From: Cryobacterium roopkundense
GTDB taxonomy: Bacteria; Actinomycetota; Actinomycetes; Actinomycetales; Microbacteriaceae
Assembly (NCBI RefSeq): GCF_014200405.1
Contig: NZ_JACHBQ010000001.1
Location: 2,604,001-2,668,000 of the forward strand
Length of the DNA stretch: 64,000 bases
Direction: 5' to 3'
The position numbers and the translations under genes are program-made. A model generated the notes under the pieces. That model worked only from the letters and a program-made list of their open reading frames with translations. It was not told where the DNA came from and did no database searches. Shown here piece after piece: positions 4,009 through 22,089 of the stretch (position 1 is its first letter; the number at the start of each line of letters is the position of its first letter).

Positions 4009-4620
4009 TCATTGCCACTCGTCGCCGAGGGTCGCCAATGCCGAGACTGTGAGGTCGATGACGGCGGTGAGAAGCGCCTCGGCCGTCGAAGCCTGCAGCA
4101 GGGCGACCTGATCGAGTGGCCCAACCGGTGCAATCGCGGCGAGTTGCCAGATGGCGGCCACCGGGTCATGGGACAGCTCAACGTCCGCGGCCCACTGCTG
4201 GTCCACGAATTCGCTCGCCCGGGCGAGTGCCCGGCGCACGGTCTTCTCGGCCTCCTCACGCAGGGGCAGCAGGCTGTCGTCCCACTCCAGGTCGGCTACC
4301 TCCCGCACTCGGGCAAGCGGATGCGGGTCTTCCGCGAGCCATTCGACCACCTCGATGCGTCGATCACCCTGTGCGATCAGGGCCACAACGTTCTCGTCGG
4401 CCCCGACCTGAGTAATCCGGGCGACGGTGCCGTAGCGAAAACGGTGTTCCCCGCCGCCGACCTCCTGCCCCCGCTCGATCAGCACCACGCCGAATTCCGC
4501 AGGTTCCGCCTGCAGCACCCGGGCCAGCATCACGAGGTAGCGTTCCTCGAACACCCGCAGCTGGATGGGCATAAAGGGGAACAGCACGGATCCCAGCGGG
4601 AACATCGGCAAGTCGGTCAC
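4009..4620 (-). CDS. LON peptidase substrate-binding domain protein
   Basis: The 203-residue protein consists of a Lon N-terminal (substrate-binding) domain without the AAA or protease domains. The characteristic opening is LPMFPLGSVLFPFMPIQLRVFEERY, followed by EFGVVLIERGQEVGGG. Free-standing LON-domain proteins are common in Actinobacteria and have no established enzymatic role. It begins with GTG one base after the stop of the DUF2461 gene, so the two are almost certainly cotranscribed. Confidence 0.88.
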   Translation of the reverse strand: MTDLPMFPLGSVLFPFMPIQLRVFEERYLVMLARVLQAEPAEFGVVLIERGQEVGGGEHRFRYGTVARITQVGADENVVALIAQGDRRIEVVEWLAEDPHPLARVREVADLEWDDSLLPLREEAEKTVRRALARASEFVDQQWAADVELSHDPVAAIWQLAAIAPVGPLDQVALLQASTAEALLTAVIDLTVSALATLGDEWQ

Positions 4621-4621
4621 G

Positions 4622-5335
4622 TCAGGCGCGCCCTTCCGTCAGACTGCGAGTCAGTTCAAGGGATGCGAGCGGCACATTGAGGAATTCCACGAGCGGCGCG
4701 ATCACCCGGAAGCGTTCGACTACCGTGTCGAGAAATTCCGCGCCCTCGCTGGTGATTCCCGGCAGGTGCGCCGTGAGGGCCCAGCGCCGATTTCGGAGCA
4801 GGTCGGCCGCGGGGTGGTCGGCCGGGAAGCCTCGCGGCGCGCGCAGGAGCGGATCCCCGTCGAGGGGCTCGAACAGACCCGAGCGATCGCCGTCGCTGAG
4901 CAGGCCACGCAGCTCCCGCTCGTGGCTGACGATATGGTCGCGGATCGCCGACAGTTGCTCAGGCCGGGGGCTGTAGGCCCCGCCCGCAATCATGAGCGAG
5001 CGAGCGCCAACCTGCAGGAAAAACCCCGCGCCACCGGCAATGCCCTGCCGCGGCCAGTGCGCGGCCATGTGGGACTTGTAGGGGCTCTTATCCTTCGAAA
5101 ACCGCACATCGCGGTAGATGCGAAGCATCGCCTTGGCGGGTGGACGCACGTAGTCGGGGGCAAAGTCGGCCAGTCGATCGTTGACTGCGGCGGCCACCTC
5201 GAGCATGCGCGATTTGAGCTCGCTTTCGTAGGTCGGCTTGTGCTCGGCGAACCACTCCCGATCGTTGTGGTGTTCGAGTTCATCAAGAAAATCGAGGGCG
5301 GCCGCAGAGAAACGCACGTTCGTGATGGAGACCAT
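4622..5335 (-). CDS. DUF2461 domain protein
   Basis: The 237-residue protein matches the DUF2461 (TIGR02453) family throughout: FSAAALDFLDELEHHNDREWF at the start, RIYRDVRFSKDKSPYKSHMAAHW in the middle and GAYSPRPEQLSAIRDHI later. No biochemical function is known to me for this family. It is the first gene of a two-gene unit with the LON-domain gene. ATG start, divergent from the secreted protein on the other strand. Confidence 0.9.
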   Translation of the reverse strand: MVSITNVRFSAAALDFLDELEHHNDREWFAEHKPTYESELKSRMLEVAAAVNDRLADFAPDYVRPPAKAMLRIYRDVRFSKDKSPYKSHMAAHWPRQGIAGGAGFFLQVGARSLMIAGGAYSPRPEQLSAIRDHIVSHERELRGLLSDGDRSGLFEPLDGDPLLRAPRGFPADHPAADLLRNRRWALTAHLPGITSEGAEFLDTVVERFRVIAPLVEFLNVPLASLELTRSLTEGRA

Positions 5336-5488
5336 TTGGTCTTGAACTTACACCCGAATAGCCGAGTCGTTCCTGTACGAACGGGCCCATTGACGAGGCC
5401 GTGGAACGGGGCAACACTGACCCTCGAACGAGTCAATCCGCCCGGTTCGTACCGGTCTGCACCGCACCTTCACACGAGGGATGAGCCC

Positions 5489-7870
5489 ATGCGCACACCT
5501 GTCCGACGCAGAATGATCTGCTCCGCCATCCTCAGTGGAGCATTGGTCTGGGGCCTCCTTCCCGCCGTTCCGGCAGCCACGGCCGTGGACTTCTGCGCCA
5601 CTCCCCTCGAGAACCCCGTCGCCTGCGAGAACTCGAAGCCCGGCTCCCCTGCATCGCAGTGGGACGTTTCAGGTTCGGGCAGCGCTGCCATCCAAGGCTT
5701 CTCGACCGACATGAGCGTCAACCTCGGCGGCCGAATCGGCTTCAAGGTCGACACAACCGCGGCGGCATTCCGTATCGATATCTACCGGCTGGGCTTCTAC
5801 GGCGGTTCCGGCGCGCGTTCGATAACGACACTGTCGAGCACTGTCGCCCGCGACCAGCCCAATTGCCTGAGCAACTCGTCCACGGGACTCGTCGACTGCG
5901 GAAACTGGAGCGAATCGGCTTCCTGGACGGTGCCGGCCACGGCAGTCTCGGGTGTGTACATCGCGCGGCTCGTGCGCACCGACGGAACCTCGGGCGCGAG
6001 CCACATCGTCTTCGTGGTGCGCGACGACGCCAGCACATCGGACCTGCTCTTCCAGACCTCGGACACGACCTGGCAGGCCTATAACCAGTACGGCGGCAAT
6101 AGTCTCTACACGGGTTCCCCGGTCGGGCGAGCGTACAAGGTCAGCTACAACCGACCGGTCACGACGCGCGGCACCGGCGCGGAGGACGCCGTGTTCAACG
6201 CCGAGTACCCGATGATCCGCTGGATCGAAGCGAACGGGTACAACGTGAGCTACACGTCCGGAGTCGACAGCGACCGCCGCGGGGCACTCATCCGCAACCA
6301 CAAGACATTTCTCTCGGTGGGCCACGACGAGTATTGGTCGGGCCAGCAGCGTACCCAGGTGGAAGCTGCCCGCAGCGCGGGCGTCAACCTGGCATTCTTC
6401 AGCGGGAACGAGGTGTTCTGGAAGACCCGATGGGAGTCCTCGATCGACGGCTCCGGCACCACCTACCGCACGCTCGTGACCTATAAAGAGACCCAGGCGA
6501 ACGCCAAGATCGACCCGAACAGCGCCTGGACGGGCACGTGGCGAGACCCTCGATTCAGCCCGCCGGCCGACGGCGGTCGGCCGGAGAACGCCCTCACGGG
6601 AACGTCGTTCACGGCCAACTGCTGCACCACGCAGATGAAGGTGTCCGGCGCCTTCAAGAACCTGCGGTTCTGGCGCAACACCCGCGTCGCGGCGCTCGCG
6701 GCCGGCGCCACGACCCAGCTGGGCACCAACACCCTCGGCTATGAGTGGGACGGCGACCCCGACAACGGTGCCCGCCCCGCCGGCCTCGTGCCGATGTCGT
6801 CCACCACGGTCGGAGGGATGGATGTGCTTCAGGACTACGGCTCGACATATGCCACGGGCACGGCCATCCATGCCCTCACGCTGTATCGGGCCGCGAGCGG
6901 CGCACTCGTCTTCGGCGCCGGAACCGTACAGTGGTCCTGGGGTCTCGACGGCAGCCATGATCGAGGTTCCAGCACCCCGGACACCGCCATGGGCCAGGCT
7001 ACGGTGAACCTCTTCGCCGACATGGGCGCCCAGCCGGCCACCATCAAGTCGGGTCTCAGCGCGGCGCTGGCGTCGACAGACACGACACCCCCGACATCGG
7101 CCATTTCCTCGCCCGCGGCCGGATCCGTGCCGGCCAGCACCACGATTTCTGTCTCCGGAACCGCAGCAGACACCGGCGGCGTGGTCGGGGCGGTGGAAGT
7201 GTCCACGGACGGCGGGGGCAGCTGGCATCGGGCGAGCGGCACGAGCGCTTGGACGTACAGCTGGCGCACGCCGTCGTCGGGGTCGGCCACGATTCTCAGC
7301 CGTGCAAGCGACGACAGCGGGAGCGTGCAGACGTCGCCCACGTCACGCACCGTCACGGTCGCTTCGACGACCCCGATGCCCTGCCCGTGCTCGCTCTGGG
7401 CAAGTTCCACGGTCCCTACCGTGTTGTCGGACTCCGACAGGAGCGCGGTGGAACTCGGCGTGCGCTTCCGCTCGGACAGAGCCGGCTCGATCACCGGAAT
7501 CCGCTTCTATAAGGGAAGCGCGAACACCGGAACCCACCTCGGCCGGCTCTGGACCACGGGCGGCACCCAGCTGGCGTCTGCAACGTTCAGCGGTGAGACC
7601 TCGAGCGGCTGGCAGCAGGTGAACTTCGCCACCCCCGTTCCTGTCACCGCCGGCACAACCTACATTGCGTCGTACTACGCCCCTGTTGCCGCCTACTCCG
7701 CCGACACCGGCTTCTTCGCGATAACCGGCGTCGACCAGGGGCCGTTGCACGCCCCCTCCGACGCGTCCGGAAGCGCCAACGGCGTCTACCGTTACGGCTC
7801 GGGCGGAGGCTTCCCCACGAGCACGTACCAGTCCACGAACTACTGGGTAGACGTAGTGTTCGCCGGCTGA
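5489..7870 (+). CDS. Secreted N,N-dimethylformamidase beta-subunit-like protein with Ig-like and DUF4082 domains
   Basis: A 793-residue exported protein. The ATG at 5489 follows a GAGGG site and opens a signal peptide (RRRM, then a hydrophobic run, then VPAATAVDF). Residues of about 60-520 resemble the large subunit of dimethylformamidase (FRIDIYRLGFYGG, SDTTWQAYNQYGG, SVGHDEYWS, FFSGNEVFWKTRW). A bacterial Ig-like segment follows (STDTTPPTSAISSPAAGS, VEVSTDGGGSWH). The C-terminus is a DUF4082 module (GVRFRSDRAGSITGIRFYKG). Known dimethylformamidase is cytoplasmic and hydrolyses an amide. This exported multidomain form more likely acts on or binds an extracellular polymer. No membrane anchor or sortase motif was seen. 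Confidence 0.85.
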   Translation: MRTPVRRRMICSAILSGALVWGLLPAVPAATAVDFCATPLENPVACENSKPGSPASQWDVSGSGSAAIQGFSTDMSVNLGGRIGFKVDTTAAAFRIDIYRLGFYGGSGARSITTLSSTVARDQPNCLSNSSTGLVDCGNWSESASWTVPATAVSGVYIARLVRTDGTSGASHIVFVVRDDASTSDLLFQTSDTTWQAYNQYGGNSLYTGSPVGRAYKVSYNRPVTTRGTGAEDAVFNAEYPMIRWIEANGYNVSYTSGVDSDRRGALIRNHKTFLSVGHDEYWSGQQRTQVEAARSAGVNLAFFSGNEVFWKTRWESSIDGSGTTYRTLVTYKETQANAKIDPNSAWTGTWRDPRFSPPADGGRPENALTGTSFTANCCTTQMKVSGAFKNLRFWRNTRVAALAAGATTQLGTNTLGYEWDGDPDNGARPAGLVPMSSTTVGGMDVLQDYGSTYATGTAIHALTLYRAASGALVFGAGTVQWSWGLDGSHDRGSSTPDTAMGQATVNLFADMGAQPATIKSGLSAALASTDTTPPTSAISSPAAGSVPASTTISVSGTAADTGGVVGAVEVSTDGGGSWHRASGTSAWTYSWRTPSSGSATILSRASDDSGSVQTSPTSRTVTVASTTPMPCPCSLWASSTVPTVLSDSDRSAVELGVRFRSDRAGSITGIRFYKGSANTGTHLGRLWTTGGTQLASATFSGETSSGWQQVNFATPVPVTAGTTYIASYYAPVAAYSADTGFFAITGVDQGPLHAPSDASGSANGVYRYGSGGGFPTSTYQSTNYWVDVVFAG

Positions 7871-11030: not shown

Positions 11031-12866
11031 TTAGGCGGCGGTGATGCCGAAGCTTTTGAGCTTGCGGTAAAGCGAGGAGCGCGCTATGCCGAGGGCCTGC
11101 GCGGTGAGCACCCGGTTACCGTCGGCCTCGTGCAGGGCGTTCACAATGAGGTCTCGCTCCCCGGCCTCCATGGGTGAAAGAAGACGGCGAGCGCCGCTGT
11201 GGCAATAGCCCGGCAAGTCTTCGGACTGGATCTCCCCGACGGGCCGCTTCACGAGGGCGGACTCGAGGGCCTCCTCGAGCTGGCGGATGTTGCGCGGCCA
11301 GGTGTAGCGGCACAGGACGCGCATCGCGGCGGCCCCGATGGTGACACCGCGCGGTCCGGTCAGGGTGGCCAACACACGGGTGGCGATCTGCGGCAGGTCA
11401 TCAAGGCGGTGACGGAGCGGTGCGACCGTGACTGATGCATCGAATCGCGCCAGCAGTTCGGCGAACGGCAGCCCGGGGTCGAGCGTGGGTCCGGTGACCG
11501 TTGCGGCTACCGTCACCGGCCAGCGACTCGCGGCGAGCGCAACCAGAAAACGATCGAGGCCCTCCGCCGCCTCTGCGGTGAGGTGGTCGATGTTGGTGAA
11601 CACGTAGAGCATTGGCCCCGACTCCGCGTGCAGCCCGGCATCGGCCGCGGGGAACGTCAGGGTATTCGCGGTCACGTCTTCGGCAGCCCACACCCTGCTG
11701 CGTCCCGCGGGGACGACGCGGTGATAGAGATCCACGATCAGGGAGAGCTTGCCGCTGCCTGACTCCCCCATCACGAGCAGCGTCTTCCGTTGGCGCAGCG
11801 CGTCGACGATTGCAGTCGCGGTGCGCTTGCCGAGAAGCGAGCGGTCAACGCCGTCGACGGCTGGATCCTCGACGGCTGCGTCGATGCTTGTCACAGGGGC
11901 TGCAGCGCGCGCCGGCGCCGCAGCAGCCTCTGAGACGATGTCGACGATCATCACGATGCCCGCCACGTTGTCTCCCACTCCCACCCGGGTACCCCGGATG
12001 TGCACGACCTTGCCCGAGAGCAGCTCGATCTGGTCGACCGGGGCGCCGCGGCCCATCGCGAGGTAGCGGCCGTGCTCGTGGATCGCCCATTGTTCGGCGG
12101 GTTCGAACAGGCTCTGCGCCACGGCGTTGCCCATCACCATCGTGCCGCCGATCGCCATCACGGCTCCGCGGCTGCGGGCATCCATTCGTACGTAGGCTTC
12201 GAACAGCGCCTGCTGGCGTTGGCTGCGATCCACGAGCAGATTGCGTTCGATTTCGTGGGCGGCCGACCGCACAAGCGAGCGCATCAGGGGGCTGGAGTCC
12301 TGGCTCAGGCAGCTGATATCGAGAACGCCCTCCACTCGTCCGGTCAGCGGGTCGTGAATCGGGCTCCCCGCGCAGGCGAAAGGCTGCAGGTGCTCGGTGA
12401 AGTGCTCAGGGCCCACGATGTAGAGCGACTGGCCAGACTCGATCACAGTGCCGATGCCGTTGGTCCCCACCGCGCCCTCGGCATAGTTGAAACCAGGGGC
12501 GAGTGAGACCTGGTCGAGCAGGGTTCCGATGGTCTTGTTGGTCTCCGAACGGCTGAGGATACGCGCGCGCGCATCGGTGAGCACGATGCTCAGCGGCATC
12601 TGGGCCATGTCGTCGCTCAGCCGGGCGATGACCGGTTTGGAGCAGCGCACCAGGCGCCCGGTCAGGTCGAGGTCGCTGTGGAAAACAGCCTGCGCGGTGG
12701 CCGCGTTGACGCCGGCCGAGAAGGAACGCTGCCAGGACGCGGCGACCACGCCGGCTACGTCTCCGGCGATCACCCCTGGCGCGGCGGGCGTATCGGCCGG
12801 CCCGAAGCGAAGAAAATCGGCGCGCGCCGCAGCAATCCTTAAACGCCGAGCGGCGGTTTCGGGCAT
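11031..12866 (-). CDS. AcoR-like GAF/AAA/Fis transcriptional regulator lacking GAFTGA
   Basis: The 611-residue regulator has a GAF sensor at about 60-215 (GTNGIGTVIESGQSLYIVGPEHF), a PAS-like segment at about 225-310, a degenerate AAA+ domain at about 340-550 with Walker A GESGSGK at 367-373, and a Fis-type HTH at the C-terminus (ALGIARSSLYRKL). The GAFTGA loop that contacts sigma-54 is absent and the Walker B region reads PMLYVFTNID. It is probably a sigma-54-independent activator, as is common in Actinobacteria. It is divergent from the carboxylase operon, with a palindrome between them, so local control of that operon is likely. Strong AAAGGAG ribosome site before the ATG. Confidence 0.88.
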   Translation of the reverse strand: MPETAARRLRIAAARADFLRFGPADTPAAPGVIAGDVAGVVAASWQRSFSAGVNAATAQAVFHSDLDLTGRLVRCSKPVIARLSDDMAQMPLSIVLTDARARILSRSETNKTIGTLLDQVSLAPGFNYAEGAVGTNGIGTVIESGQSLYIVGPEHFTEHLQPFACAGSPIHDPLTGRVEGVLDISCLSQDSSPLMRSLVRSAAHEIERNLLVDRSQRQQALFEAYVRMDARSRGAVMAIGGTMVMGNAVAQSLFEPAEQWAIHEHGRYLAMGRGAPVDQIELLSGKVVHIRGTRVGVGDNVAGIVMIVDIVSEAAAAPARAAAPVTSIDAAVEDPAVDGVDRSLLGKRTATAIVDALRQRKTLLVMGESGSGKLSLIVDLYHRVVPAGRSRVWAAEDVTANTLTFPAADAGLHAESGPMLYVFTNIDHLTAEAAEGLDRFLVALAASRWPVTVAATVTGPTLDPGLPFAELLARFDASVTVAPLRHRLDDLPQIATRVLATLTGPRGVTIGAAAMRVLCRYTWPRNIRQLEEALESALVKRPVGEIQSEDLPGYCHSGARRLLSPMEAGERDLIVNALHEADGNRVLTAQALGIARSSLYRKLKSFGITAA

Positions 12867-12928: not shown

Positions 12929-12947
12929 GTGTCCCAATGTGGGACAC
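12929..12947. promoter_or_regulatory. Candidate operator/activator site for the carboxylase operon
   Basis: GTGTCCCAATGTGGGACAC is a perfect palindrome with 7-bp arms and a 5-bp centre. It lies 63 bp upstream of the AcoR-like start and about 88 bp upstream of the carboxylase start. Position and symmetry fit a dimeric Fis-type HTH binding site. This is inference. Confidence 0.5.
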
Positions 12948-13034: not shown

Positions 13035-14891
13035 ATGGAACGTTTGATCAATATCGACAACGGCGGCACACTCACGGACATCGTGGTGGGAAGCGGAACG
13101 GATTTCACGTTCACGAAAACCCTCACAACACCCGTCGACCTGTCGCAGTGCCTCTTCGACGCCATGACTAAGGCGTCGACTCAGCTGTTCGGCGAGCCCA
13201 ACCTCGCCGAACTGCTCCACTCCACCCGCCACATCCGCTACTCGTCGACGCAGGGCACCAACGCTCTCGTCGAACGCAAGGGACCGCTGATCGGACTCAT
13301 CACCGATGATCCCGAACTCGCAGCCACCCTGCGGGCCACCGAAAAGTCGGCTGGCCTCTTCGACGACCTCATCGGCGGACGGATCGCGGTCGTCTCCACC
13401 ACCGGCTCGCTGGACGAGCTCGCAAGCGAACTCGTTCTGGAGATCAACCGGCTGACCACCGCCGGCGCCGAACGCCTCGTTGTGGCCGCGAGCAGCCTCG
13501 AACGCGAGCACCTCTACAAACGCACGATGCTCAAGAACTTTCCGCGACACCTGCTCGGCTCCGTTCCCATCCTGTTCTCCAGGGAATTCGCCTCCGACAC
13601 GTCGAGGGACCGCCAGATCTGGTCGGGGATCCTCAACTCGTTCCTGCACCCCACAGTCGAGCGCTTTCTCTACAGCGCCGAGCACCGCCTGCGTGCGTAC
13701 AAGGTGAAGAACCCGCTCTTGATCTACCGCAACGACGGCGCCTCTTCCCGCGTCGCCAAGTCGGTGGCCCTCAAGACGTACTCCTCCGGACCCCGCGGCG
13801 GACTTGAAGGGACCCGCGCCCTCGCCGAGGCCTACGGCCTCACCAACGTGCTGATGATCGACGTCGGCGGCACCACGACCGACGTGGGCGTCGTGAACGA
13901 CGCCACGATTTCGGTGGACCGCCGCGGCTCGATCCAGGGTGTCGACATCTCCTACGAAATGAGCAACGTGCATTCCACCGGTGTGGGCGGCAGCTCGATC
14001 ATCGCCGTGCACGACGGCGCGATCACCGTGGGACCCGAGAGCGTGGGCGCCGCTCCCGGCCCCGCATGCTTCGGGTTCGGCGGCACCCAGGCCACCATCA
14101 CCGACGTCAACCTGCTGCTCGGCGTGCTCGATCCCGAGACCTACCTGAACGGCGAAATGGCACTCGACGCCGAACGGTCCCGCGCCGTGATCACCAGGAC
14201 CGTGGCCGAGCCACTCGGAATCACCCTCGAGGAGGCCCTCGTGCGCATGGAAGAAACCTACTCACAGCGCCTCGCGCAGTCCTTCGCCGGTCTCGTGCTC
14301 CCGACCGGCGAAACGACCCTGGCTGCGTTCGGCGGCGGCGGACCGATGAGCGCGTGCAGCGCCGCCCAGATCGCCGGTGTTCACCACGTCCTGGTACCGC
14401 GCCTCGCCGCGGTGTTCTCCGCCTATGGCATCAGCTTCTCCGACATCGCCCAGACGTATGAAACCGACGTCACCGGCTTCACGCCCGAGGCCATCGAGGC
14501 CGCGAAGCAGACGATGACAGCGGATGCCGGCCGGGACATGTTCCAGGAAGGTCACGAGCTCAGCGCCTGCGACCTCGATTGGAAGGACATCTGCGAGGAC
14601 GGCAGCGAGATCCTGTCACTGACGGCCACATTCCGCCTGCCGCACCCGACGCTCACGGGCGGTTCCCCCGCCGACGCGACCGTCGCCGTGGCGAGTGGAA
14701 CACGCCAGGTGCGCTCGGGCGCCGACCAGATCGACACTGTGTCGGTCTACCAGCTCGACGAGCAGGCACCGGGGGCCGCGGCAGCCGGTCCGGCCATCGT
14801 CGAAGGCCCGTTCTTCACCGCCCGGGTTCCCCTGGGCTGGAGTCTGAAGATTTCCACGGCCGGCGACCTGCAGCTGACCGACATCCGCTGA
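13035..14891 (+). CDS. HyuA-like subunit (alpha type) of acetophenone/acetone carboxylase-like enzyme
   Basis: A 618-residue hydantoinase A/oxoprolinase-family protein with the ASKHA-type phosphate loop near the start (NIDNGGTLTDIVVG), a second loop MIDVGGTTTDVGVV, and GPESVGAAPGPACFGFGG. Its size (about 66 kDa) matches the smaller of the two HyuA-like subunits of acetophenone carboxylase. In such enzymes these subunits bind ATP and activate bicarbonate or the ketone enolate. The start was set at ATG 13035 because it follows AAAGGAGC and because the upstream extension is non-conserved intergenic sequence. It is the first gene of a five-gene operon. The substrate is not readable. Confidence 0.85.
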   Translation: MERLINIDNGGTLTDIVVGSGTDFTFTKTLTTPVDLSQCLFDAMTKASTQLFGEPNLAELLHSTRHIRYSSTQGTNALVERKGPLIGLITDDPELAATLRATEKSAGLFDDLIGGRIAVVSTTGSLDELASELVLEINRLTTAGAERLVVAASSLEREHLYKRTMLKNFPRHLLGSVPILFSREFASDTSRDRQIWSGILNSFLHPTVERFLYSAEHRLRAYKVKNPLLIYRNDGASSRVAKSVALKTYSSGPRGGLEGTRALAEAYGLTNVLMIDVGGTTTDVGVVNDATISVDRRGSIQGVDISYEMSNVHSTGVGGSSIIAVHDGAITVGPESVGAAPGPACFGFGGTQATITDVNLLLGVLDPETYLNGEMALDAERSRAVITRTVAEPLGITLEEALVRMEETYSQRLAQSFAGLVLPTGETTLAAFGGGGPMSACSAAQIAGVHHVLVPRLAAVFSAYGISFSDIAQTYETDVTGFTPEAIEAAKQTMTADAGRDMFQEGHELSACDLDWKDICEDGSEILSLTATFRLPHPTLTGGSPADATVAVASGTRQVRSGADQIDTVSVYQLDEQAPGAAAAGPAIVEGPFFTARVPLGWSLKISTAGDLQLTDIR

Positions 14892-14933
14892 ATCTCCCAA
14901 CCCATTTTGTTTCCCCAGAAAGGTAAGAACACA

Positions 14934-15401
14934 ATGCGCGTTCCCATGACGGAGTACCTCTTTATAGACCTCGACACCGAACGGTGGATCTGCCGCGTCT
15001 GCGCTCACGATTTCGGCGATGCCCGCGGCAACTACAAGGAGGGAACCCTGGTCTACGACCGGGACCCTCGCGAGATCCATCCCCCGGTCATCGACCCGGA
15101 GAAGTACGAGTTCACGTTCTCCCCCGACCCGACGTTCTGCCGCATCCTGGAGTTCTACTGCCCCACCTGCGGCACCCAGATTGAGGCCGAATACCTGCCG
15201 CCAGGGCACCCGCCCACCGTCGACATGCTCTGGGACATCGATTCCCTCCGCGAGAAGTGGGAAGCCCACGGCGGCAACCCTGAAGAGGTCGTGAACTACG
15301 GTCCCGGCGAGAACGCCGTCACTGACCTGAGCGCTCGTTTCGACTCCGTCGGCGGCCACTCGCACGCACATAGCGGCACCACCACGACTGAAGGGCACTG
15401 A
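14934..15401 (+). CDS. Small zinc-type subunit of acetone/acetophenone carboxylase-like enzyme
   Basis: A 155-residue protein resembling the gamma subunit of acetone carboxylase (the small 15-kDa subunit of acetophenone carboxylase). Cysteines lie in a C-x2-C pair at 20-23 (WICRVC) and a C-x6-C-x2-C cluster at 69-79 (TFCRILEFYCPTC), forming a probable zinc site. The conserved WICRVCAHDFGDARGNYKEG is characteristic. The C-terminus ends in a histidine-rich, non-conserved tail (GGHSHAHSG). The stop lies 2 bp before the next GTG start, so coupling is tight. Presence of this subunit separates a carboxylase from ordinary hydantoinase or oxoprolinase gene pairs. Confidence 0.85.
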   Translation: MRVPMTEYLFIDLDTERWICRVCAHDFGDARGNYKEGTLVYDRDPREIHPPVIDPEKYEFTFSPDPTFCRILEFYCPTCGTQIEAEYLPPGHPPTVDMLWDIDSLREKWEAHGGNPEEVVNYGPGENAVTDLSARFDSVGGHSHAHSGTTTTEGH

Positions 15402-15403
15402 CC

Positions 15404-17530
15404 GTGAAACGCATATCGGTAGACATCGGCGGCACGTTCAGTGACTGCTTCTTCGTGTGGGACGACATCTACATCGAGTCGAAGGCTCTCACGACGCACC
15501 ACAACCTGGCGCTGGGCTTCAACGAGGCTCTCGATCGGGCCTGCGACCGGGCCGGGATCTCACGGGAAACCGCGCTCAAAGAGGTCGACTCCGTGCGCTA
15601 CGCCACGACCCTCGGCACCAACGCCCTGATCGAGGGCAAGGGGCCGCGGGTGGCGGCCATCGTCACCCACGGCTTCGAAGACACGATTCCGCTGTCCCGG
15701 GGCCGCGGCTACGGCGAGGGCCTCGACGGTGTAAAGCAGGGCGACATGCCCGACGCCCAACGCCCAGACCCGCTCGTGCCGCGCCGCCTCATCCGCTCGG
15801 TCAAGGAACGCATCGACTCGGTCGGCGAGGTGCTCGTGCCGCTGATGTACGACGACGTGCGCACCCAGGTGCGCGATCTCGTGAACAACGGTGCCGAGGC
15901 GATCGTGATCGCTCTGACCAATGCCACCGAGAATTCGGTGCACGAAGACCGCATCCTCGAGATCATCCTCGAGGAGTACCCCACTCACGAGCTCGGCTCA
16001 ATCCCCGTGCTGCTCAGCAGCCAGGTGTCTGGGCGCAAGGGCGAGTACGTGCGGGCCATGGCCACGATCGTGGACGCGTTCCTGCACGAGACCATGTTCC
16101 ACGCCCTCAACCAGCTGTCCAACAACCTGCGTGACTCGGGTTATGAGAAGCCGATGCTCGTGATCCACAACTCGGGCGGCATGGCGCAGCCCAACTCGAC
16201 GGATGCCCTGCAGACGATTCACTCCGGACCGATCGCCGGTGTCGGCGCGGCCCAGCACCTCTCCGAGAGCACCGGGCTCGGCGACGTGGTGTCGATGGAC
16301 ATGGGCGGCACCTCGTTTGACATCGGACTCGTGCCGGAGGGCGGCGTGCGACACTACGACTTCCAGCCCACCATCGGCCGCTGGATGGTCTCGGCGCCGA
16401 TGATCCACCTCAACACCCTCGGCGCGGGCGGTGGATCGATCGCCGCGTACAACCGGATTCACCACGCCATTCAGATCGGACCGGAGTCCGCCGGCTCCGA
16501 CCCGGGCCCGGCCTGCTACGACCGCGGTGGCCTGCGCCCCACTGTCACCGACGCCGACCTGGTGCTCGGCTATCTCGATCCTGACAACTACGCGAACGGC
16601 CACATCAAGCTCAACAAGAAGCGGTCGATCTACGTGATCGACGAGACGCTCTCCGACGAGCTCGACCTCGACGCGGTCGAGGTCGCCAAGGTGATCAAGA
16701 AGACCGTCGACGAGCAGATGGCTATCGGCATTGAGAAGGAGCTGCGCTCGCGCGGCGGACTGATCGAGGACTACACGATGCTCGCCTACGGCGGCAACGG
16801 CCCCCTGCACGCCTGCGGAATCGCGGCGAGCGCGGGTATCAGCCGCATCCTGTTTCCGCCGTTCGCGTCCGTGTTTTCCGCTCTCGGCGCCGGCAACATG
16901 CGGCCGCTGCACATCCACGAGCGCAGCGCCTACGTCGTGCTGTACGAGGCCATCAAGCGCAGCCTCTACAACAAGTACGAGGCCCTCAACGGCTACATCG
17001 CCGAACTCGAGGAAAAGGGCGCCGAGGACCTCGTGCGCCAGGGTTACGACAGAGCGGATGTTCGCTACCGGCTCGAGATGGACATGCGCTACGGCAATCA
17101 GCTCGTCACCACCGCCGTGGCATTCGATATCAACCGCGTCAACGGCGTCGCCGACGTGCTGCACCTCATCAAGACGTTCTCGGAGATCTTCGGCGAGCGT
17201 TACGGCGAGGGCACCCAGGCGCCCGAGGCCGGCATCCGCGTGCAGACCATTCGGGTGGCGTCCTACATCGAGGGTGAGGTGATTGCGTTCGAGTCGATCG
17301 AAACCGGTGGCGAGAAGACCAAGCCGGCGCCGGTCACCCACCGCAAAGTGCACTTCACGAGCATCACCGGGGCAGTCGACACCCCCGTCTACGACGCCGA
17401 TGCCCTCAAGCACGAGTACGTCATCCACGGACCGGCGATCGTGACCACGGAAAACACCACCTACCTGGTGGAACCGGGTTGGCGCCTCGAACCGACAGTG
17501 CAGGGGGCCGTATGGCTGCTGAGCGACTGA
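15404..17530 (+). CDS. HyuA-like subunit (large) of acetophenone/acetone carboxylase-like enzyme
   Basis: A 708-residue hydantoinase A/oxoprolinase-family protein resembling the beta subunit of acetone carboxylase. It has N-terminal SVDIGGTFSDCFFV, TLGTNALIEGKGPR, VSMDMGGTSFDIGLVPEGG and GPESAGSDPGPACYDRGG, all family hallmarks of the ATP-binding fold. At about 77 kDa it corresponds to the second HyuA-like subunit, which would pair with the 618-residue subunit encoded upstream as alpha/alpha-prime do in acetophenone carboxylase. It starts at GTG, 2 bp after the zinc-subunit stop. All motifs look intact. Confidence 0.88.
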   Translation: MKRISVDIGGTFSDCFFVWDDIYIESKALTTHHNLALGFNEALDRACDRAGISRETALKEVDSVRYATTLGTNALIEGKGPRVAAIVTHGFEDTIPLSRGRGYGEGLDGVKQGDMPDAQRPDPLVPRRLIRSVKERIDSVGEVLVPLMYDDVRTQVRDLVNNGAEAIVIALTNATENSVHEDRILEIILEEYPTHELGSIPVLLSSQVSGRKGEYVRAMATIVDAFLHETMFHALNQLSNNLRDSGYEKPMLVIHNSGGMAQPNSTDALQTIHSGPIAGVGAAQHLSESTGLGDVVSMDMGGTSFDIGLVPEGGVRHYDFQPTIGRWMVSAPMIHLNTLGAGGGSIAAYNRIHHAIQIGPESAGSDPGPACYDRGGLRPTVTDADLVLGYLDPDNYANGHIKLNKKRSIYVIDETLSDELDLDAVEVAKVIKKTVDEQMAIGIEKELRSRGGLIEDYTMLAYGGNGPLHACGIAASAGISRILFPPFASVFSALGAGNMRPLHIHERSAYVVLYEAIKRSLYNKYEALNGYIAELEEKGAEDLVRQGYDRADVRYRLEMDMRYGNQLVTTAVAFDINRVNGVADVLHLIKTFSEIFGERYGEGTQAPEAGIRVQTIRVASYIEGEVIAFESIETGGEKTKPAPVTHRKVHFTSITGAVDTPVYDADALKHEYVIHGPAIVTTENTTYLVEPGWRLEPTVQGAVWLLSD

Positions 17531-17582
17531 CCACCCCCTTCACTTTTTCTTCAGCGAACGCAAGCAAAGGAGCTTGAGCACA

Positions 17583-19931
17583 ATGACACTGACAACAGAC
17601 GAATTCGTACCGGCCGGCCAGCAGGACGACGATTCCCGCGGCAATGATTCCCAGGAGCTCACCACCCAGGAGCAGCAGTGGGTCGACAAGTTCATGGATG
17701 AGACCACCCTCTTCCTCGGACCAGACCCGGCAATCATGCGCCACCACGAGATCATGCCCAGAACGGCATACGAAGAGGAATGCATCAGCCAGGGCATCAA
17801 CCCGCTCGAGATCGACCGCATCCGCAAGCGCCTCGCCGGCGCCCTCGACGAAGCCTTCGAGATGTGTGAGAGCATGGGCGCCGCCCCCGGCGCCAAATGG
17901 GCCGATCTGTCCTGCGCCGTGTATACCGCGGAGGGCGACGTGACGTATCTCTCCAACCGCGGCGTCATCGCCTTCTCTGCGGTGCTGCACCACCCCATCC
18001 GCTACATCATGAAGAACTGGAAAGACGAGCCCACCGTCGGCATCAACGAGGGTGACGGCTTCTTCCACAACGACTCCCGCTTCGGCATGGTGCACAACAC
18101 CGACCAGTCGATGCTCGTGCCCGTGATTCGCGGCGGAATCATAATCGCCTGGGTGGGCGCCACCATCCACGAGGGAGAGAACGGCGCCTGCGAACCGGGC
18201 GGCATGCCGTCGGGCTCGGAGACACCGTTCGATGACGGGCTGCGCGCCTCCCCGATCAAGATCGTGGAGAAGGGGCACCTGCGCCGCGACCTGCTCACCT
18301 TCCTGCAGCACTCCACCCGCGACCCCAAGCTCATGCTCGCCGATATCAAGGTGAAGATGGGCGCCGTCAAGCGCATCATGGACACCGTCGACCGCCTGAT
18401 CGACGAGGTCGGCCAGGAAACCTTCGTGGCGTCCCTTCGCGTCACCGTGGAGGACGTGGAGACCGAGGTGAAGCGCCGCATCGGCGAACTGCCCGACGGC
18501 ACTGTCACTTTCAACCAGTTCGTGGACTCCACCCTCAAGGAGAACATCCTGATCAAGTTCGCCTGCAAGATCACCATCAAGGGCGAACGCATGATCGTCG
18601 ACCTCACCGGAACGGGCCCCGAGATCCTGAACCGGGCCATCAACTCTCCGCTCGCGTCGACCAAGTCGTTTATGGCCCAGGCGATCTTGTCGTACTGGTG
18701 GCCGGATCTGCCCCGCTCGACCGGTGCCCTGTCGCCGATCGAGGTCATCACCGAGGAACACAGCTGGGCGGATGCGGGCTACGACGCTCCGGTCGGACAG
18801 TCGCTGCAGGCGTCCTTCCGCGGTTTCTCGGCCCTGCAGACGGCCTTCGCGAAGATGCAGTTCTCGTCCCCCCAGAAGTACTCGAACGTGGTCGCCCCCT
18901 GGTTCAACCAGATCAACGACTTCCTCTGGGGTGGCACCACGCAGAACGGCGAGCAGGTGGGCAACCTGTGCGCCGACCTCAACGGCATGGGCGGCGGCGC
19001 GAAGGCGTTCCGCGACGGTGAAGACGCCGTGGCTCCGCTGTTCTGCGCGATGGCCGACATCGGCGAGCAGGAGGTGATGGAAGAAGAGGTTCCGTTCCTG
19101 CAGCTCGTGAGCAAGCGTATGGTGCGCGACAACCAGGGCTTCGGCAAGTTCCGCGGTGGCATGGGCTACGAGATGATCGTGGCCTCGCGCGGCACGCCGA
19201 GCTGGGGGTTCATGACCGTGACGAGCGGCTCGAAGTTCTCCTCGGTCCCCGGCATGTTCGGCGGTTACGGCTGCCCCGTCTACCCGCTCGCCATGGTCAA
19301 GGGCATCAACATCTACGACATCATCCAGAAGGATCCCACCCAGTTCAACCTGTCGATGGAACGCGTGATGAACGAGCAGCCCTTCGAGGGCGGCGACTAC
19401 CAGTCCGCGCACATGGGACTGCAGTTCGACGTGGCCAAGGAGGGCGAGCTGTATATGATCGCCCAGGGCGCCGGCGGTGGCTACGGCGACGTGCTCGAAC
19501 GCGACCCTGAGCTCGTGGTGACCGACCTTGAGCTCGACCGGATCTCGGCCCACACGGCGTCGACGATGTACGGCGTGGTCTGGGAGCCCGAGACCTACGT
19601 GGTGCACGAGCAGGCCACGATCGAACTCCGCGCCCAGATGCGCCAGGACCGCATCAACCGCGGTACCCCCTACAAGGAATTCATCCAGGAATTCGTGAAG
19701 GAGGAGCCGCCGGCCGAGCTGTTGTACTTCGGCTCATGGGGCCAAGACAACGACGAGGAACTGTTGGCGACCCACTGGGGCGGACTTGAGCCCGAGCGGG
19801 TGAAGGGCAAGCTCGAGGACCTGCCGCTCATCATGGTTCCCGACCGCCGGGTGCTGAAGATCAGCAAGCTTGAGGCGCGCGTACGCGAACTCGAAGAGAA
19901 ATACGGCGAAGTGGTCGAGCACAAGTCCTGA
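17583..19931 (+). CDS. HyuB-like subunit of acetophenone/acetone carboxylase-like enzyme
   Basis: A 782-residue hydantoinase B/oxoprolinase-family protein resembling the alpha subunit of acetone carboxylase. Landmarks include VTYLSNRGVIAFSAVLHHPIR, EGDGFFHNDSRFG, GGIIIAWVGATIHEGENGA and QGAGGGYGDVLERDPELV. The ATG at 17583 is preceded by AAAGGAG. About 50 bp separate it from the previous gene, so it probably belongs to the same transcript. The C-terminal region ends in a coiled, charged segment (LEARVRELEEKYGEVVEHKS). With the three genes before it this makes a full set of large subunits for a biotin-independent ATP-dependent ketone carboxylase. Confidence 0.88.
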   Translation: MTLTTDEFVPAGQQDDDSRGNDSQELTTQEQQWVDKFMDETTLFLGPDPAIMRHHEIMPRTAYEEECISQGINPLEIDRIRKRLAGALDEAFEMCESMGAAPGAKWADLSCAVYTAEGDVTYLSNRGVIAFSAVLHHPIRYIMKNWKDEPTVGINEGDGFFHNDSRFGMVHNTDQSMLVPVIRGGIIIAWVGATIHEGENGACEPGGMPSGSETPFDDGLRASPIKIVEKGHLRRDLLTFLQHSTRDPKLMLADIKVKMGAVKRIMDTVDRLIDEVGQETFVASLRVTVEDVETEVKRRIGELPDGTVTFNQFVDSTLKENILIKFACKITIKGERMIVDLTGTGPEILNRAINSPLASTKSFMAQAILSYWWPDLPRSTGALSPIEVITEEHSWADAGYDAPVGQSLQASFRGFSALQTAFAKMQFSSPQKYSNVVAPWFNQINDFLWGGTTQNGEQVGNLCADLNGMGGGAKAFRDGEDAVAPLFCAMADIGEQEVMEEEVPFLQLVSKRMVRDNQGFGKFRGGMGYEMIVASRGTPSWGFMTVTSGSKFSSVPGMFGGYGCPVYPLAMVKGINIYDIIQKDPTQFNLSMERVMNEQPFEGGDYQSAHMGLQFDVAKEGELYMIAQGAGGGYGDVLERDPELVVTDLELDRISAHTASTMYGVVWEPETYVVHEQATIELRAQMRQDRINRGTPYKEFIQEFVKEEPPAELLYFGSWGQDNDEELLATHWGGLEPERVKGKLEDLPLIMVPDRRVLKISKLEARVRELEEKYGEVVEHKS

Positions 19932-19949
19932 CCTTGACTTGATCCGTGG

Positions 19950-19979
19950 CTGCGGGACCGTCTCCTTACGGTCCCGCAG
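19950..19979 (+). terminator. Hairpin between carboxylase genes 4 and 5
   Basis: ctgcgggaccgt and acggtcccgcag form a perfect 12-bp stem with a 6-nt loop, 18 bp after the HyuB-like stop. There is no T tract after it, so it may attenuate or protect the transcript rather than end it. The fifth gene starts 39 bp downstream. Confidence 0.65.
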
Positions 19980-20018
19980 TCACGGGTCGAACTACGTGAA
20001 CCAACGACAGGAGACACC

Positions 20019-20828
20019 GTGACCACCTCGCTGACCAACGTCATCGCCCGGCCGCCCACTGGGCGCGCCCGCGCCGTGCTGCTCGATAGCCATGACTACG
20101 CCCAGGCCGTGCTGCTGCAGGGCAAACCGGTGCCATGGCTCGAGCCGATGGCGTACTCCAACTTCTTCGGACAGGCCCAGGCACTGCTCAAGTCGGATGT
20201 CGCCTTGCTCAGCCTCGACCGCCTGTACGCCCATCAGCTTGCGGCCAACCCCCACCTCCAGTCGGCGATGAGCGCCAAGACTCGCACCGGTTACGCGCTG
20301 CGCACCCTGCTCGCCGACCCCGACGTTCTCTCGTACGTCACGGAATTCGCCGCGACCTTCAGCCAGACGCAGCGCGCGCCGATCGTGCTGCAGATTCCGT
20401 CTCCCATGCAGTGGCTCGCCCGTACACACCACTTCTCCGGCACAACGGATGTCTCCGGTCTCGATGCCGACGACGGCGAGAACGCGTCGATGTACGTGGC
20501 GGATTGGCTGCGCAGCTTCGCGGGCCTGAACATCGCGGGCGTGCTGATGGACGCCCGCACGCTGCCCGGCGCGGGCAACACTGCCCCGGTTTCCCTCGAC
20601 ACGTATTCACCCATCGCCAACGTCACGGAGCACTACCGGTGGACTCTGGCGCTGCGCACCGCGGGCGCCATCGACGTGCATGGGGCATCCGCTTCGGGCG
20701 CCATCATCCGTGCAGACTTCTGGCTGGAGGAGGGCCATTCCCTGCCAGACGGCGACTTCCTCCTCGGCGAGATTCCTGCCGGGGCGGTGCCGGAGGAGGT
20801 ACTCAATCGAATCCTCGCGCTGATCTGA
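20019..20828 (+). CDS. Unrecognised fifth protein of the carboxylase locus
   Basis: A 269-residue soluble protein starting at GTG after an AGGAG site. I do not recognise a family with confidence. Visible landmarks are PVPWLEPMAYSNFFGQAQ, LQIPSPMQWLARTHHF, a possible acidic loop DADDGENASMYVADWL, and NIAGVLMDARTL. Alternating strands and helices with LQIPSP and AGVLMD would fit a TIM barrel, as in the uroporphyrinogen decarboxylase/methionine synthase superfamily. Its place at the operon end parallels the epsilon subunit (apcE, about 34 kDa) required by acetophenone carboxylase, but homology is not shown. An intact frame and same strand support a functional link with the carboxylase. Confidence 0.7.
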   Translation: MTTSLTNVIARPPTGRARAVLLDSHDYAQAVLLQGKPVPWLEPMAYSNFFGQAQALLKSDVALLSLDRLYAHQLAANPHLQSAMSAKTRTGYALRTLLADPDVLSYVTEFAATFSQTQRAPIVLQIPSPMQWLARTHHFSGTTDVSGLDADDGENASMYVADWLRSFAGLNIAGVLMDARTLPGAGNTAPVSLDTYSPIANVTEHYRWTLALRTAGAIDVHGASASGAIIRADFWLEEGHSLPDGDFLLGEIPAGAVPEEVLNRILALI

Positions 20829-20831
20829 GGG

Positions 20832-21986
20832 CTACCCTCGCGTCGGCTGCTCAGTCGCGCCCGGGATCAGGCGCTCGACGCGCAGGCGGTTGAAGAGTTC
20901 CGTGAAGGAACGTTCGGTGCGCCGATAGCCGAGGAAGCCGGCCTCCCGGCTCTTGCTCATGTCGGTCATCACCTCGATGTTGCGGCCAAGGTCGCCGTCG
21001 GTGTGCCACCAGGATGCGAGGCGTGTGCTGTCGGGCTCGATCAGGTCGTATTTCTCCGCGATCGAGCGCCACTCACTCTCGGCGTCGGCCATCTGCGTAT
21101 CCAACGGCCGCGGTTCCCCCACGAACCCTTCGGGCTCAACCCCGAAGTAGGCGGCGAGGCGCGGCCACATGGAACGCCAACGGAAAATGTCGCCGTTCGC
21201 GATGTTGTAGGCCTGGTTTTCCACGCCGGGAGTGCTGGCGGCCCACACCATCTGGTCGGCGAGCAGGCCGGCATCCGTCATGTCGGTCACCCCGTTCCAC
21301 TGGGTCTCCGATCCCGGAAAGATGAACGGGCGATTGAATTCGCGGCTGATGGTCGCCTGCACGGCAATCGTGGACCCCATATTCATAGCGTTGCCCACGG
21401 CGTGCCCCACCACGGTGTGGGCGCGGTGTACTGACCAGGCGAACCCCTGGCGCGCGGCTGCGGCCCACAGCTCGTCTTCCTGGGCATAGTAGAAGTTGTT
21501 GACCGGCAGTCGCGGTTCTTCCTCGTGGAAGGGCGTGTCGGCCATTTCGCCGGCCGCGTAGGCCTCGAACGGGCCCAGGTAGTGCTTGAGCCCGGTCATC
21601 AGGGCGACGTGCTCGACTCTGGTGTGCTTCAGCGCTGCGAGCAGGTCGCGGAGCATTCCCGCGTTCACGTCGATGTTGGCGGCCTCGGTCTCTTGCCGGG
21701 ACCACGCGGTGAAGAACACGTGGGTGGGGTGCTCGTCGCGCAGGGCGCGCTCCAGGTCCGTGGCAGATCGCAGGTCGGCCTGGACGTGGGTGGTTCCCTC
21801 AACTGCGGCACCGGCAGATCGGGACAGGGTCGTGACCGGCCATCCGTCGACCAGGAGCCGATCACGCACGGCGGAACCGGCTATTCCGGTCGCCCCTACG
21901 ACGAGCGCACGGTGGGGCAGAGAAGAGGGAGTGGAAACGATGGGTGGATCCTTCTGTCGGGGGCGGGGACGAAGTGGATGCTTCAT
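20832..21986 (-). CDS. PRISE-type SDR (progesterone 5-beta-reductase/iridoid synthase-like enone reductase)
   Basis: A 384-residue atypical short-chain dehydrogenase. It carries the nucleotide-binding ALVVGATGIAGSAV, the family signature LMTGLKHYLGPFEAY and the active-site NFYYAQEDEL, where the tyrosine and upstream lysine are the PRISE catalytic pair. PRISE enzymes reduce activated C=C bonds of enones with NADPH. ATG 21986 is the in-frame start chosen; residues before ALVVG are poorly conserved. Its stop lies only 3 bp from the stop of the convergent fifth carboxylase gene. It could act on the same ketone or enone substrates, but this rests on position only. Confidence 0.85.
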   Translation of the reverse strand: MKHPLRPRPRQKDPPIVSTPSSLPHRALVVGATGIAGSAVRDRLLVDGWPVTTLSRSAGAAVEGTTHVQADLRSATDLERALRDEHPTHVFFTAWSRQETEAANIDVNAGMLRDLLAALKHTRVEHVALMTGLKHYLGPFEAYAAGEMADTPFHEEEPRLPVNNFYYAQEDELWAAAARQGFAWSVHRAHTVVGHAVGNAMNMGSTIAVQATISREFNRPFIFPGSETQWNGVTDMTDAGLLADQMVWAASTPGVENQAYNIANGDIFRWRSMWPRLAAYFGVEPEGFVGEPRPLDTQMADAESEWRSIAEKYDLIEPDSTRLASWWHTDGDLGRNIEVMTDMSKSREAGFLGYRRTERSFTELFNRLRVERLIPGATEQPTRG

Positions 21987-22089
21987 GCCACTGTCGATAT
22001 ATAACGCCTTGCGACGTCGCGTATTCCACGTTCGTGTTCGCAGAGCGGGGTTCAGGCTGGCCACGTCCTGGCCTTACCGCCCCGATGCT

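Follow-up and report, generated by a model that had tools for sequence, protein, structure and literature searches.

A five-gene operon of Cryobacterium roopkundense follows the plan of acetophenone carboxylase and probably serves the carboxylation of a different ketone

We analysed a 64,000-nucleotide stretch of the Cryobacterium roopkundense genome (the window; assembly GCF_014200405.1, contig NZ_JACHBQ010000001.1, positions 2,604,001 to 2,668,000) that contains an operon resembling the genes of acetophenone carboxylase (Apc). A preliminary description had placed five co-directional genes at 13035–20828 on the plus strand, and all five reading frames proved open and intact at these coordinates. 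The first, alpha' (ApcA-like, HyuA fold; 13035–14891, ATG start, 618 amino acids (aa)), is followed by gamma (ApcB-like; 14934–15401, ATG start, 155 aa) with a four-cysteine zinc-type site, alpha (ApcC-like, HyuA fold; 15404–17530, GTG start, 708 aa), beta (ApcD-like, HyuB fold; 17583–19931, ATG start, 782 aa) extended at its N terminus by about 70 residues, and an epsilon-like gene (ApcE-like by fold, with a predicted URO-D-type barrel; 20019–20828, GTG start, 269 aa, 28.9 kDa). The sizes first given for the other four products (about 66, 17, 77 and 87 kDa) agreed with computed masses of 65.4, 17.6, 77.1 and 86.9 kDa, and the assignment of two HyuA-like proteins, one HyuB-like protein and a small CxxC zinc-type protein was borne out by Pfam matches far above the cut-offs (Hydantoinase_A twice, Acetone_carb_G (PF08882) in gamma, and Hydantoinase_B). 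The fifth gene, described as unrecognised, indeed matched no model of Pfam or NCBIfam at E 0.001, whereas the claim of tight spacing held only loosely, with intergenic gaps of 42, 2, 52 and 87 bp. Both Hydantoinase_A matches in the 4.53-Mb genome lie inside the operon; thus the genome holds no other HyuA-containing enzyme of this family.

Searching the PDB revealed that all four core subunits match the Apc structure 5L9W better than acetone carboxylase (Acx) or hydantoinases (Hyd), with best matches of alpha' to chain b (the Apc 'alpha' of that entry; E 3.4e-80), gamma to chain C (E 4.5e-33), alpha to chain B (E 9.6e-144) and beta to chain A (E 7.4e-80). Criteria separating Apc, Acx and Hyd were published with this structure, when the Apc branch held only one characterised enzyme according to the available text (PMC5214803). 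The gene order alpha'-gamma-alpha-beta-epsilon, both in the window and in related loci, is the apcABCDE order of that scheme. The R/KERiDsxG fingerprint is present in alpha as KERIDSVG and absent from alpha', which reads GGRIAVVS at the same place; the ATP-site motifs DxGGT and GxxPGP are kept in both proteins; gamma retains four cysteines (CxxC at 20 and 76), a probable zinc site; and alignment to 5L9W showed the D/H/D/H metal set kept in beta. Apc of Aromatoleum aromaticum (5L9W core, 9FOU epsilon) has the gene order, ATP-site motifs, alpha fingerprint, four gamma cysteines, D/H/D/H beta site and epsilon fold in common with the Cryobacterium operon, but differs in its ketone pocket, its shorter beta and an ApcE that has no detectable sequence relation to the Cryobacterium epsilon. 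The approximate subunit lengths of the published scheme were not matched, owing to the long beta. Identity to a betaproteobacterial Apc is about 35, 31, 51 and 29% for alpha, alpha', gamma and beta, respectively.

The preliminary description had preferred the acetophenone-carboxylase plan to that of acetone carboxylase and proposed a phylogeny of both HyuA-like subunits as a check; gene order, motifs, PDB matches and the resulting tree all support that preference. In this tree of 50 rows, 15 of them Acx- or Hyd-like and with the Apc set (L113) and AcxABC-like set (L118) of one genome (G083) as references, the Acx/Hyd group (support 100/99) is separate from alpha and alpha', neither of which falls inside it, and alpha joins Apc alpha with support of 98/94. 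AcxABC (5SVB, 5M45) shares HyuA, HyuB and gamma homologues and a long beta with the Cryobacterium operon, but it has three subunits without alpha' or epsilon, follows the order acxABC and stands on the opposite side of the tree; the AcxABC-like L118 showed lower identity (29, 24 and 28%). Identity with AcxABC was set aside by PDB match, gene order, tree and the presence of alpha' and epsilon, and identity with hydantoinases by PDB match, gene order, tree and the presence of five genes rather than a two-gene alpha/beta system. We regard it as extremely unlikely that the product is an ATP-dependent amidohydrolase of the oxoprolinase, hydantoinase or caprolactamase type, although it carries HyuA and HyuB domains, some relatives among the matches listed are named hydantoinase by their sources, and alpha reaches 406 bits with the caprolactamase alpha model (cut-off 1000): gamma, alpha' and epsilon are present here and missing from hydantoinases in the published scheme, as far as the available text of PMC5214803 sets it out, the tree places the subunits outside the Acx/Hyd group, and 13 of the 48 related loci have genes for beta-keto acid conversion close by.

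The confident model of epsilon found its best Foldseek match in the ApcE crystal structure 9FOU, and the two share the same overall fold, a URO-D-type barrel. The NCBIfam ApcE model NF042977 had no match in epsilon, and the weak sequence matches in the PDB (best E 0.033, to chlorophyll-binding proteins) were disregarded. On the predicted structure, the fifth protein looks by fold like ApcE, which Apc binds loosely as its fifth subunit, and is hidden from sequence search.

Analysis of the ketone pocket separated the operon from Apc itself. The residues predicted to line the pocket of Apc alpha (L81, F281, N282, P285, I333, Q344 and T345, in the available text of PMC5214803) read LFNPIQT in 5L9W and the G083 Apc, whereas 49 alpha sequences including that of Cryobacterium, 14 of them printed individually, read TIHPIHL; five of the seven residues thus differ, with the same replacement in all 49. 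Close variants were found in L061 and L117 (TVHPIHL) and in L116 (TVHPVHL). Since other branches of the family also commonly have T at the first place, four of the changes are telling, and since H is found at the sixth place in one Acx row too, the distinctive part is the combination of I-H and H-L. Such a common replacement suggests that these enzymes act on a single other class of substrate, which would not be acetophenone.

Comparison with the NCBIfam acetophenone carboxylase equivalogs (NF042960, NF042974, NF042975, NF042976, NF042977) gave scores far below the curated cut-offs for the Cryobacterium core subunits (314, 137, 524 and 299 bits against 1250, 250, 1500 and 1500), whereas the betaproteobacterial Apc set L113 came within 1–13% of them (1240, 245, 1490, 1388 and 391 against 1250, 250, 1500, 1500 and 450). 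A true acetophenone carboxylase making benzoylacetate would agree with the subunit plan and best PDB matches, and related actinobacterial clusters carry that name by annotation in the text available; with these low scores, five altered pocket residues and an operon without a ligase, unlike apc-bal as partly described, we consider it very unlikely. The A. aromaticum apc operon has a CoA (coenzyme A) ligase gene at its end (available text of PMC4729919), and some relatives of the Cryobacterium operon have a CoA-transferase nearby instead. Acetovanillone catabolism is a different system, for which a biotin-dependent three-component carboxylase has been proposed in Rhodococcus GD02 (available text of PMC8461187).

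The subunit set recurs well beyond this genome. A locus scan that reached genomes containing either of two exact peptide patterns gave 44 loci of 72 stretches; one search for relatives scored 8000 candidates, and the listings of relatives cover the best 120. Alpha', gamma and alpha occur together in all 48 related loci and epsilon in 45, the other three (L034, L036 and L052) stopping at a contig end; the five-gene array is therefore not a chance arrangement. Alpha' is 94% identical in Cryobacterium sp. MLB-32 (L023), and close homologues (80–94%) were present in 13 of 36 genomes of the genus but in none of 23 genomes from other families of the order (best 33%). Among 396 sampled genomes of the phylum, alpha' was found at E 1e-120 in three, Cryobacterium included and one of them at 40% identity, and epsilon at E 1e-10 in two. 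The operon is an accessory trait of patchy distribution, and it belongs to a distinct, mainly actinobacterial clade whose genera include Cryobacterium, Arthrobacter and Rhodococcus.

Among 301 genomes from the family to which Rhodococcus ruber belongs, the alpha' of this clade was detected (E 1e-150) in 16 and a PF08882 match in 20, including those 16. The matches in the other four genomes lie at an Apc-like alpha'/alpha/beta set (L124) and inside HyuB-like frames (L125–L127), and none of the four places showed a classical acxABC. PF08882 matches inside long HyuB-like frames (L119, L125, L126 and L127) suggest gamma-beta fusion. A groundwater betaproteobacterium (G083; L061, L113–L119) contains 11 PF08882 matches, seven of which cover at least 94 of 113 positions, and with Apc, Acx-like and several clade-like sets it is an apparent ketone-carboxylation specialist; its L061 has a reductase gene (ADH_N_2) between beta and epsilon. 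A five-gene operon on a 9.7-kb Marinobacter contig (L047) is nested among actinobacterial copies in the tree, reflecting either horizontal transfer or contamination.

Upstream of the operon lies a divergent gene for a 611-aa regulator (11031–12866, minus strand) with GAF, AAA+ lid and Fis-type helix-turn-helix regions and the Walker A motif GESGSGK. Motif and Pfam checks found neither a GAFTGA motif nor a Sigma54_activat match in this protein, and because GAFTGA is absent, the regulator is probably sigma-54-independent. A homologue occurs in 34 of the 48 related loci, and ten loci, all without the divergent regulator, have a LuxR-type ATPase regulator instead. Between regulator and operon we found a perfect palindrome, GTGTCCCA-ATG-TGGGACAC (12929–12947), whose core, TGTCCCAATGTGGGACA, lies 105 bp 5' of the alpha' start codon, the first of the operon. 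The pattern TGTCC-N5-9-GGACA occurs upstream in 30 of 45 loci, compared with six chance sites over 0.94 Mb of these loci, and a narrower form of it has a single place in the whole genome, before this operon. Of 27 loci with the divergent regulator, 26 have the palindrome pattern, as do 4 of the 18 that lack the regulator (table 26, 1, 4, 14, in which L030 counts as lacking the regulator though a homologue was found there; Fisher p 2e-7, only indicative because related loci are not independent); one of the four is a gene-calling miss. We infer that the palindrome is the candidate operator of the divergent regulator, and the two probably control the operon. Promoter and terminator scans gave site numbers close to those of shuffled sequence (1 against a mean of 0.8, and 4 against 4.9), and no tRNA genes were found in the window.

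Several related operons adjoin genes for a 3-oxoacid CoA-transferase (TIGR02428/TIGR02429), a PRK07516-type thiolase and an IclR regulator. Of the 48 loci, 7 have a CoA-transferase B homologue and 9 the thiolase; 13 have at least one of the two, among them loci of Cryobacterium, another Microbacteriaceae genome, Arthrobacter, Rhodococcus and Pseudonocardiales. The C. roopkundense genome has its own block of IclR, CoA-transferase A, CoA-transferase B and thiolase genes at 324.8–328.4 kb, and the products are 73% (IclR), 89% (CoA-transferase B) and 87% (thiolase) identical to those encoded upstream of the C. tagatosivorans operon (L025). A zinc alcohol dehydrogenase gene adjoins the operon in L055 and has a 68% homologue at 3388.5 kb of the Cryobacterium genome. 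This gene set fits a route from alcohol to ketone, beta-keto acid, CoA ester and finally acetyl-CoA plus acyl-CoA. The substrate is most likely a ketone other than acetophenone, probably a small methyl ketone of the aliphatic type, for example acetone or butanone.

An Apc-plan carboxylase acting on a larger ketone (cyclic, terpenoid or alkyl-aryl) rather than a small aliphatic one is unlikely in our estimate, though less so than acetophenone itself. The family is wide, and a PRISE-type (enone reductase-like) SDR gene lies convergent to the operon and after it (20832–22064, minus strand), with homologues in L023, L026 and L027; yet PRISE homologues occur in only 4 of 45 loci, and the nearby 3-oxoacid CoA-transferase and thiolase genes in several genera fit short beta-keto acids more simply. 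The larger-ketone alternative also draws on loci L036, L053 and L061, where an AMP-binding ligase takes the place of the CoA-transferase.

Taken jointly, the evidence makes it likely that the operon encodes a biotin-free, nucleoside triphosphate (NTP)-dependent, five-subunit ketone carboxylase of the Apc plan, which would act on a ketone other than acetophenone and feed a beta-keto acid into a CoA route; the carboxylase activity itself is inferred from the combined analysis. With roles taken from the published Apc model, alpha would phosphorylate the enol form of the ketone and alpha' bicarbonate, beta and gamma would form the core, and epsilon would dock and bring the two activated substrates together, so that ketone, bicarbonate and NTP would yield a beta-keto acid. 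The 3-oxoacid CoA-transferase would then activate this acid to its CoA ester, which the PRK07516-type thiolase may cleave to acyl-CoA and acetyl-CoA.

Several observations weigh against parts of this reading. The match of the epsilon model to ApcE has modest TM-scores (0.57/0.53) and ties with URO-D by Z, and comparison of 40- and 26-row alignments with hhalign detected no sequence relation between the two (probability 0.1, E 0.42). The grouping of alpha' with ApcA is only weakly supported (91/86 and 90/49, with long branches), and beta, at 782 aa against 684–686 in Apc, is close in length to acetone carboxylase beta (776–804). As for the route, 35 of 48 loci have neither CoA-transferase B nor thiolase within the flanks covered, the block in the own genome lies about 2.3 Mb from the operon, three other CoA-transferase-type gene pairs exist genome-wide (six matches in all), so that the pairing is not unique, and the ligases of L061, L053 and L036 again count here. 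For the aliphatic substrate, the basis is context together with a pocket that is itself only predicted in the available text of PMC5214803.

By annotation in partly available sources, R. ruber Chol-4 has an acetophenone carboxylase cluster made up of apc1-4 and fisR, Paraconexibacter has a core-complex operon, and Rhodococcus IGTS8 has one subunit gene; the locus of R. ruber NBRC 15591 (L057), which contains all five subunit genes as well as the regulator, fits the Chol-4 annotation. We found no experimentally tested function for the clade in the open-licence literature, subscription papers being mostly outside that scope, and no gene for an actinobacterial acetone carboxylase in the available text of the acetone-carboxylase literature.

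Clark and Ensign reportedly described a nucleotide-dependent acetone carboxylase activity in Rhodococcus rhodochrous B276 in 1999, and the enzyme is said to use GTP, to accept a range of ketones and to consist of subunits of 85, 74 and 16 kDa. This is actinobacterial ketone carboxylation, and the reported masses are near those of Cryobacterium beta, alpha and gamma; three bands leave alpha' and epsilon without a counterpart, and no gene assignment was found. No record named R. rhodochrous B276 was found among the genomes with one of the two exact peptide patterns. A tentative proposal, to which we give a minor chance, equates the clade, marked by a two-histidine pocket that hardly varies and a URO-D-type epsilon of divergent sequence, with the broad-range Rhodococcus ketone carboxylase of 1999 and its reported use of GTP.

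Other genes near the operon include one for a bacteriorhodopsin-like protein (PF01036; 22429–23274, minus strand), with homologues in four related loci, and, upstream of the regulator, a deoxyribodipyrimidine photo-lyase-related gene (PF04244; 9302–10996, plus strand) that is also upstream in L023. A 1101-aa protein encoded at 4565–7870 (plus strand) combines an N,N-dimethylformamidase beta-like C-terminal domain (PF20254) with DUF4082.

If the clade is indeed the Rhodococcus enzyme of 1999, actinobacteria would use a five-subunit, two-kinase plan for aliphatic ketones, for which proteobacteria use the three-subunit enzyme. The clade provides a second, distinct test case for the Apc branch, with an altered pocket and a diverged epsilon, and makes the obscure role of epsilon testable by comparison. 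It may also supply the genes for actinobacterial ketone-carboxylating activity, and where a 'hypothetical protein' is encoded next to such an operon, it is probably a subunit that the enzyme requires.

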